In this document: one piece after another, positions 13,466 through 15,385 of the stretch
How positions within the stretch are numbered: the stretch's first letter is position 1
Layout of the letters: the number at the start of each line of letters is the position of its first letter
The notes under the pieces: model-generated
Told to the model about the DNA's origin: nothing
Seen by the model: the letters and a program-made list of their open reading frames with translations, nothing else
The model's database searches: none
Source of the DNA: Bradyrhizobium sp. CCGB01
GTDB taxonomy: Bacteria > Pseudomonadota > Alphaproteobacteria > Rhizobiales > Xanthobacteraceae
NCBI RefSeq assembly: GCF_024199795.1
Contig: NZ_JANADK010000001.1
Span: 6,076,001-6,140,000, forward strand
Length of the DNA stretch: 64,000 nucleotides
Direction of reading: 5' to 3'
Translations under genes and position numbers: made by a program

Positions 13466-15097
13466 ATGCCGAGCAAACCCGAAGGCGTCCGCCGTTACAT
13501 CGTCATGAGCAAGGATGGCTATCTTGCAGAGCCGCTCGATACCGCGAACCTGCAACCGAGTGCCGGCACGGTAACGCTTGCCACGCGGGCGCGCGCCGTC
13601 GCGCCGGCCCCACAAATGCGGGTGCTGGATTCGCTTCACGAGAACGGCCCCAAGCTGGTCGAAATGGCTCCCGAGGGAGAGCTCAGCCTTCGTCTCAGCT
13701 CACCGGACCTGAAGATCATCCCGGAAGTCTTTTATCACCGGCAGTGGGAGCGCTTCCGCGTTCATCAGCGTCCTCCCCGGCCCGCGGCCAAGAAGGCAGC
13801 CGCGAAGAAAACCACCGCCAAAAAGGCGGCCGGCAAGAAAACCGCGAAAAAGGCCGCCGCGGGCCGGGTCAGATTGGCCACCGTGGCAGGCGTCTCGGCA
13901 ACCAGCTTCACCGTCTCGGTCGTGGCACGGTCAGGCGGCGCTCCGGTCGAAGGCGCTCACATCGTCGCTTTCACGGACTTCGCAGCGCGTCAGGGGGCCG
14001 AGGCGACAACGGGCGCCAACGGCAGCGCCACGCTGAACCTGCTCCCGCCGAGCCAGCCCCTCGAACGCGTCTATGTCTATGCGCCGGCCGGCTACTGGGG
14101 ATTTTTTGCCATCAACACAACCGGCGCGAACCTTGCGCAGATCAAGTTGACGTCCATCGACGTGCGCGATTCCACGCTGCTGCTCACCCAGCTCTATGCC
14201 GGGCTCCCCGTGAATGCCGGCGCTGACGTCACCGTCGGAATCATCGACAGCGGCGTCGACGGCACGCACCCCGACCTGACCAACGTGACAGGCGGCCTGA
14301 ATTGCGTGAGCGACGAGGTCCGTGCCAATCCCGCGGCCGCGCAGAATTGGCGGCCGGCGTTGACCGAGGGCGAGCACGGCACGCACGTCGCGGGCATCGT
14401 CGGTGGCCGTGGACCAGCGAGCGGATTCCGCGGCGTTGCTCCGGGGGTCAAGCTTCGGAGCTACCGCGTATTCCCGGATCACCCGCGACCGCCGCCGAAC
14501 AACGGCGCCAGCAACTTCGACATCGCCAAGGCGATCGACACGGCCGTCGCAGACAAGTGCGATATCATCAACATGAGCCTTGGTGGCGGTCCCAAGGATG
14601 ACCTTACGCGCGCGGCAATCGACCGTGCGATCGCGGCCGGCGTCGTGGTGGTCGCAGCCGCTGGCAATGACGATCGAAGCCCGGTCTCGTTTCCCGCCGC
14701 GTACGTCGAGTGCGTCGCAGTGTCGGCCATGGGGCGGGTCGGCACCTTTCCGAAGACCTCGATCGGGAGCAGCAATGTCGCCGCTCCGAAAGGCAGTCCG
14801 CACACAGGGGATTTCGTCGCTGATTTCAGCAATTTCGGCCCCGAGATCGATACCACCGGAGCCGGCGTCGAGATCGTCTCCACGCTGCCTGGAACCGGCC
14901 ACGGCTCGATGAGCGGAACGTCGATGGCGTGCCCGGCCGTCGCGGGGTTTGCGGCCTATCTCCTTGCCAAGGATCCGGCATTGAAGCAAAAAAGCGGTTC
15001 CAACCGTTCTCGCGCCCTCAAGGACGCCCTATATGCTGCTTGCAAGCCGGAGAATTTCGGCCGCGACTATGAAGGGTTCGGACTACCCCTTCCATAG
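13466..15097 (+). CDS. S8 (subtilisin-like) serine peptidase with H1-like linker and beta-sandwich insert
   Basis: A 543-residue protein that starts after a GAGGAAAC site. Residues 1-100 resemble a subtilase propeptide (YIVMSKDGYL to IIPEVFYHRQW). Residues 107-132 are a histone-H1-like Lys/Ala tract. Residues 135-240 read as a beta-sandwich (APVEGAHIVAFTDFA, ATLNLLPPS). Residues 250-540 are the catalytic domain: Asp261 in GIIDSGVDGTHPDL, His304 in EGEHGTHVAGI, oxyanion Asn401 in AAAGNDD, and Ser486 in MSGTSMACPAVAG. All four key residues are present, so it should be active. No signal peptide is seen. The small downstream gene (15140) may encode its partner. The catalytic domain is S8A-like; the overall architecture is unfamiliar to me. 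Confidence 0.9.
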   Translation: MPSKPEGVRRYIVMSKDGYLAEPLDTANLQPSAGTVTLATRARAVAPAPQMRVLDSLHENGPKLVEMAPEGELSLRLSSPDLKIIPEVFYHRQWERFRVHQRPPRPAAKKAAAKKTTAKKAAGKKTAKKAAAGRVRLATVAGVSATSFTVSVVARSGGAPVEGAHIVAFTDFAARQGAEATTGANGSATLNLLPPSQPLERVYVYAPAGYWGFFAINTTGANLAQIKLTSIDVRDSTLLLTQLYAGLPVNAGADVTVGIIDSGVDGTHPDLTNVTGGLNCVSDEVRANPAAAQNWRPALTEGEHGTHVAGIVGGRGPASGFRGVAPGVKLRSYRVFPDHPRPPPNNGASNFDIAKAIDTAVADKCDIINMSLGGGPKDDLTRAAIDRAIAAGVVVVAAAGNDDRSPVSFPAAYVECVAVSAMGRVGTFPKTSIGSSNVAAPKGSPHTGDFVADFSNFGPEIDTTGAGVEIVSTLPGTGHGSMSGTSMACPAVAGFAAYLLAKDPALKQKSGSNRSRALKDALYAACKPENFGRDYEGFGLPLP

Positions 15098-15139
15098 GGC
15101 AGCGCTCGGAAGGCCCGGCTCATTGACGGATGGCAGACG

Positions 15140-15385
15140 ATGAGCGAACGCACCGTGGTCTTTCGTGCCGATCCCAAATCCGAGGCGTGCGAGAGCGTGG
15201 TGAAGCGCTTGCGCGCCGAGGGCTTGGAGATCGTAGAACAACAACCGAACATGTTACTGGTCGCCGGCGCGCCGCGGGCGATCAGCAAGGCGCTTGGCGA
15301 CGCCGAGGGCTGGAAGCTGACGGAGGAGACGTCAACGCCTCCGCCGAAGACGCGCGAAAAGGTCCTGAAGCCGCCATCCCGATAG
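15140..15385 (+). CDS. Small protein, possible I9-type propeptide/inhibitor partner
   Basis: An 81-residue protein 43 bases downstream of the S8 peptidase, same strand. RTVVFRADPKSEACESVVKR, AEGLEIVEQQPNMLLVAGAP and ISKALGDAEGWKLTEE suggest a beta-alpha-beta-beta-alpha-beta order, the ferredoxin-like fold of I9 subtilase propeptides that also act as free inhibitors. The tail is Pro/Lys-rich (PPPKTREKVLKPP). Ribosome site GGATGG lies upstream. Inhibitor or folding-chaperone activity is inferred from position and secondary-structure pattern only. It could also be an unrelated small protein. Confidence 0.5.
   Translation: MSERTVVFRADPKSEACESVVKRLRAEGLEIVEQQPNMLLVAGAPRAISKALGDAEGWKLTEETSTPPPKTREKVLKPPSR

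Follow-up and report, generated by a model that had tools for sequence, protein, structure and literature searches.

In the soil bacterium Bradyrhizobium sp. CCGB01, the gene for a subtilisin-type (S8) peptidase is followed, 42 bases after its stop, by an open reading frame (ORF) for a protein of 81 residues. This arrangement raises the question of whether the small ORF is a gene at all and, if so, whether its product is a dedicated partner of the protease. We examined the locus within a stretch of 64,000 nucleotides (nt), here called the window (NZ_JANADK010000001.1, 6,076,001-6,140,000, forward strand), to which all coordinates refer unless a locus or contig is named. A sequence-only reading had proposed an intracellular protease-inhibitor module of two genes next to a divergent exporter. 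We find that the partner is a genuine gene under selection, and that protease and partner are kept adjacent and tend to be either both present or both missing, with an occurrence in a few scattered bacteria. By analogy with ASP-ORF2 of Aeromonas or PopC-PopD of Myxococcus, the unit probably combines a cytoplasmic S8 protease with a prodomain or inhibitor acting in trans.

A conserved gene pair

A search of about 5.8 billion proteins returned 35 clusters of partner homologues, its own included, which are 56-100% identical to it. The ratio of nonsynonymous to synonymous substitution rates (dN/dS), obtained by codon comparison with the related loci L010, L011 and L012, was 0.12, 0.21 and 0.19, respectively. 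In the alignment of the 35 partners, 16 positions do not vary and 23 hardly do, much of the C-terminal tail being among them. The structure is predicted as beta-alpha-beta-beta-alpha-beta (mean predicted local distance difference test score 80), as the sequence-only reading had anticipated. The homologous clusters, the low dN/dS and the predicted fold together argue that the ORF is more than a product of chance. The protein matched no family in Pfam, NCBIfam or PADLOC.

The linkage of the two genes is strong evidence for the pair. A single-sequence search found the partner in one of 60 relatives, i.e. its own genome alone, and an alignment-based scan of species genomes found three partner loci. 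The partner profile matched 5 of 391 genomes of the family (G000, G427, G436, G273 and G295, the last partially, at positions 29-81). A profile of the N-terminal domain of the protease matched 7/391, namely the same five at E values (E) of 1e-43 or less, plus weak matches in G385 (with stops) and G078; the two samples of 391 were taken as identical from their matching handles. The co-occurrence that the sequence-only reading had suggested as a check is therefore found. In wider samples, each of which includes the own genome (G000), the same N-terminal profile gave two matches among 397 genomes at the level of the order (the other being G615), two among 357 for the class (the other being G1146) and three among 299 for the phylum (the others being G1281 and G1398).

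Adjacency was counted over intact loci, leaving out the decayed or remnant loci of G295 and G385 as well as G1398, whose match is to positions 123-204, the middle domain only, in a different architecture of 741 residues. A short gene lies directly downstream of the protease in 7/8 of these loci, window included, and the protease lies directly upstream of the partner in all five intact partner loci (the window, L010 from G436, L011, L012 from G273, and G427). In G078, which belongs to another genus of the family, the protease is 38% identical and a gene of 89 residues overlaps its end by 20 nt. The protease of G615, from another family of the order, is 40% identical, and a gene of 87 residues, whose frame has an upstream in-frame start, begins 4 nt after it. 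Elsewhere in the class, G1146 encodes a protease that is 36% identical, with a gene of 83 residues beginning 14 nt after. The partner-profile search of the family genomes missed the G078 gene, while G615 and G1146 lay outside it. A profile of eight window-type partners, run against the 1721 open frames of all loci, placed the genes of G615 (E 5.7e-5) and G078 (E 7.4e-4) above every unrelated frame. The G1146 gene reached E 0.55 with this profile and 0.055 and 0.21 with deeper ones; since its similarity to the partner family is not significant, it counts by position and strand-helix pattern only, and the other six of the seven are supported by sequence. In G1281 (L048), a protease with the same N-terminal domain has no partner gene on either side. 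Its flanks hold an AraC-like gene upstream, judged by eye, and a carbon-nitrogen hydrolase gene (PF00795) downstream on the opposite strand. Protein searches also gave 10 of the 35 partner clusters that match a protease cluster in the exact size of the longest contig, which is consistent, indirectly, with linkage of partner and protease.

Domains of the protease and the genomic neighbourhood

The features of the locus are collected in Table 1. Peptidase_S8 (PF00082) matches the catalytic domain at 158.4 bits against 21.8 (E 3.2e-46). Across 60 aligned sequences (the window protein and 59 of 64 protein-search matches) the triad read earlier from the sequence is invariant, as is N401, which we take to be the oxyanion hole residue. 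Profile score, triad with oxyanion Asn and subtilisin fold place the protein in family S8. The PADLOC model PDLC03014 ('subtilase') also matches residues 54-541 at E 1e-29. No hydrophobic, signal-like stretch was seen by eye at the N-terminus, in agreement with the sequence-only reading, and the protease is probably cytoplasmic, or exported without a Sec signal.

The propeptide-like character noted earlier for the first 100 residues holds up. This N-terminal domain is conserved, with dN/dS of 0.12, 0.17 and 0.12 against L010, L011 and L012, and its elements in the model of the window protein are prodomain-like (beta 9-15, beta 51-56, beta 63-67, alpha 69-78, beta 82-86), with no long first helix. 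For the linker that follows, dN/dS is 0.56 with L010 and 0.26 with L012 and could not be computed for L011. It carries AAKK-type repeats in window-type proteases and is shorter in G078 and G615. The beta-rich domain scores 21.8 bits with PF13620, below the cut-off of 32.3.

Table 1. Features of the protease-partner locus, in window coordinates
Feature	Position	Strand	Basis
S8 (subtilisin-type) peptidase, 543 residues	13466..15097	+	ORF present
N-terminal conserved domain, residues 1-100, prodomain-like, predicted beta-beta-beta-alpha-beta	13466..13765	+	conservation, predicted elements, dN/dS
Variable linker, Lys/Ala-rich, about residues 101-145	13766..13900	+	sequence, dN/dS
Beta-rich domain, CarboxypepD_reg-like, about residues 146-235	13901..14170	+	PF13620 below cut-off; predicted strands
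S8 catalytic domain, residues 252-510, triad D261/H304/S486	14219..14995	+	Pfam match, alignment
Partner, 81 residues: predicted ferredoxin-like body (residues 4-62) and conserved Pro/Lys-rich C-terminal tail (63-81)	15140..15385	+	homologues, predicted structure, dN/dS
Major facilitator superfamily (MFS) transporter, divergent upstream neighbour	12143 to about 13321	-	PF07690, E 6e-43

Downstream of the partner lies the gene for threonyl-tRNA synthetase (thrS). L010 and L012 retain the order MFS gene, protease, partner, thrS; L016 (G295) has it in decayed form, and the shorter loci L013-L015 show thrS. We also observed that L011 carries about 1.6 kb extra between partner and thrS (6247-7890), not seen in the other loci of the family. 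The MFS gene was matched in 11 of 12 genomes of the same genus, in nine of them at 74% identity or more. It is the direct neighbour of thrS in 7/9 loci (in L038 and L039 thrS falls outside the examined flank), and neither protease nor partner was found in any of the nine. Around the pairs of G078, G615 and G1146, neither the MFS gene nor thrS was matched within 9-13 kb. Where the pair is missing, it is missing as a whole; the two genes thus form one unit, to which the MFS gene does not belong. The two-gene unit of the sequence-only reading is supported, and a divergent exporter gene does lie beside it, but the exporter stands outside the unit. In G295, what is left between thrS and the MFS gene (L016 1500-1990) is a decayed remnant with the start of the protease and the end of the partner; the catalytic part is missing, as if a single deletion had removed the middle. 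As a separate observation, G027 (L040/L043) has its MFS gene broken into two reading frames.

Fold and possible origin of the partner

The order of strands and helices predicted for the partner is, as modelled, the arrangement of subtilase prodomains. Foldseek matches are weak; most are generic ferredoxin-like folds, and prodomains or the ORF2 chaperone of Aeromonas (3wqb_B) account for a few. The proposal that the small protein is I9-like has thus stood in its predicted fold order but not in its sequence. Inhibitor_I9 (PF05922) gave no match on the partner at E ≤ 1 with the curated profile, none among ten members of the partner family at E ≤ 10, and a genome-wide scan for it at E 0.001 was likewise empty. 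In a profile comparison of the partner with I9, 2/150 local and 13/150 global column shuffles reached the score. On sequence, membership in I9 was rejected, and what the partner appears to share with that family is the predicted fold order. One of the ten members matched Pro-kuma_activ, a different prodomain family, at an insignificant E of 0.095. A profile search of PDB sequences with the partner alignment returned nothing below E 0.2.

We also compared the partner with the N-terminal (cis) domain of the protease itself. With deeper alignments, the single-comparison E was 0.018 for local and 0.0052 for global alignment, the latter over 74 columns, and the hhalign probabilities were 2.5% and 2.9%. 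No column shuffle of 150 reached the local score and 1/150 reached the global score, and one odd shuffle scored 128; this control is lenient, because shuffling also destroys the hydrophobic pattern. Shallower alignments gave nothing useful (hhalign E 0.095, probability 0.6%). This weak profile similarity allows, and does not prove, an origin of the partner by duplication. A possible, if doubtful, reading is that the protease's prodomain was duplicated and that one copy split off to become the partner. The result would be a double lock with one copy in cis and one in trans, the latter serving a cytoplasmic subtilase as a safety catch that can be degraded. The cis domain would then be spaced from the catalytic domain by the linker and the beta-rich domain.

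Protease and partner lie in one reading frame, as they do in L010, and the 42-base gap (15098-15139) holds no further stop. L011, L012 and G427 lack the shared frame. Because the genes share a frame, a read-through of the window sequence with TAG read as Q was modelled as a linked chain. Rows of its alignment were pre-selected for correct placement by MAFFT, and the last ten or so protease residues were still misplaced. Around the active site the resulting model was poor, and it gave no usable interface between protease and partner.

Likely function of the pair

The closest parallel is ASP-ORF2 of Aeromonas sobria (PDB 3wqb). According to PMC5638518, the orf2 gene lies just downstream of asp, the C-terminal residues of ORF2 sit at the ASP catalytic site, and the half-maximal inhibitory concentration is 84.3 nM. 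A short gene directly downstream of the protease gene is what we see in 7/8 intact loci, and 3wqb_B is among the fold matches of the partner. ASP differs in being extracellular and in being called propeptide-deficient, whereas the window protease has no visible signal peptide and carries a prodomain-like N-terminal domain. No sequence homology between the helpers emerged from the PDB profile search, which listed no ORF2 chain up to E 10. In Myxococcus xanthus, popC is presumably adjacent to popD. As described in PMC6434023, PopC is subtilisin-like, has no recognised signal peptide, has an N-terminal part without recognisable domains, is held by PopD and cleaves a signal protein. The window protease is likewise a subtilase with no visible signal peptide and with a putative partner, a likeness of description.

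Stand-alone inhibitors that resemble propeptides include POIA1 and the yeast protease B inhibitor. To our knowledge, such inhibitors are not encoded in bacterial two-gene units with the cognate protease next door. Malaria SUB1 also has a propeptide-like inhibitor (PMC6993865). The window partner would share with all of these a prodomain-like fold acting in trans, in its case a predicted one, and differs in having no I9 sequence match. Bacillus subtilis Isp1 is an intracellular subtilisin with a reported proteinaceous inhibitor, IPI/BsuPI (PMC3901451). The window protease, itself only probably intracellular, would be comparable in location and in having a protein inhibitor, but the partner is predicted to be alpha/beta and not, like IPI/BsuPI, an all-beta immunoglobulin-like fold. 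In the literature searched, which left most subscription papers outside, we recognised no publication describing the protease-partner pair.

From these parallels, we picture the pair as follows. Gene order and spacing suggest that the partner is co-transcribed with the protease. Most likely it folds against the surface of the catalytic domain in the manner of a subtilase prodomain, its conserved tail lying within the active-site cleft or close to it, and it would both aid folding of the protease and keep it inactive. Loss or cleavage of the partner, on some presumed physiological trigger, would then release the activity.

Chaperoning and inhibition are usually coupled in prodomains. A role mainly as an external folding chaperone, removed after folding and leaving no standing inhibitor to control activity in the cell, as for ORF2 and ASP, seems unlikely to us. 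In its favour, the gene order is the same as for asp-orf2 (PMC5638518), 3wqb_B is in the Foldseek list, and the window model shows the cis domain without a long first helix. However, that domain is prodomain-like and under selection, and the two activities are hard to separate here, since in the same source ORF2 also inhibits.

We consider it improbable that the partner is a substrate or signal precursor matured by the protease, which would free the Pro-rich tail as a peptide for possible export through the neighbouring MFS protein. The tail is indeed conserved with low predicted order, the MFS gene is next door, and PopC itself cuts a signal protein (PMC6434023). Yet the MFS gene keeps its place beside thrS in loci without the pair and was not found around the three divergent pairs, and in G078 and G615 the tail is less conserved than the body pattern. 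An addictive or defensive module spread by transfer, i.e. a protease toxin with its antidote or a defence protease, would fit the very patchy distribution (5/391) and the PDLC03014 match. We regard this as very improbable, as three genera of the family, one of them with a decayed copy, have the pair beside thrS, and six neighbouring proteins of the window had no PADLOC match at E 0.001. The stress, conflict or peptide-maturation role that had been suggested for the pair stays conjectural. The observations made earlier from the sequence are confirmed and their interpretation is partly supported: the predicted fold is not unlike I9 or ferredoxin, and the genes are adjacent in other genomes too.

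The best S8 match of the genome lies elsewhere, at C1:7604402-7605157. It belongs to another S8 peptidase of 467 residues (L027 4295-5698, minus strand) with an ORF of 80 residues 46 nt downstream (L027 4007-4249, minus strand; C1:7604009-7604248; together about C1:7604009-7605700). By eye, the strand-helix pattern of this ORF is similar to that of the window partner; Pfam gave no match for it, and its similarity to that partner is not significant. It was present in two of 60 genomes of the genus, its own and G011 (L050), where it is 89% identical and again comes right after an S8 gene. The genome has eight S8 matches in all, and a short ORF stands beside L001 and L002 (the window) among the five resolved; L003, L007 and L008 are outside this count.

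An active subtilase within the cell needs restraint, and we know of few bacterial cases of a dedicated, separately encoded subtilase partner. The principle of a subtilase with a separately encoded, prodomain-like helper is already known; the family described here is real, conserved, unannotated and mechanistically plausible. Its two genes stay side by side across proteases as far apart as about 38-40% identity (36% with G1146 included), which makes the pair a compact, testable system for how prodomain function can move from cis to trans. It may also serve as a guide to further unannotated partners beside S8 genes, of which the same genome holds another candidate.
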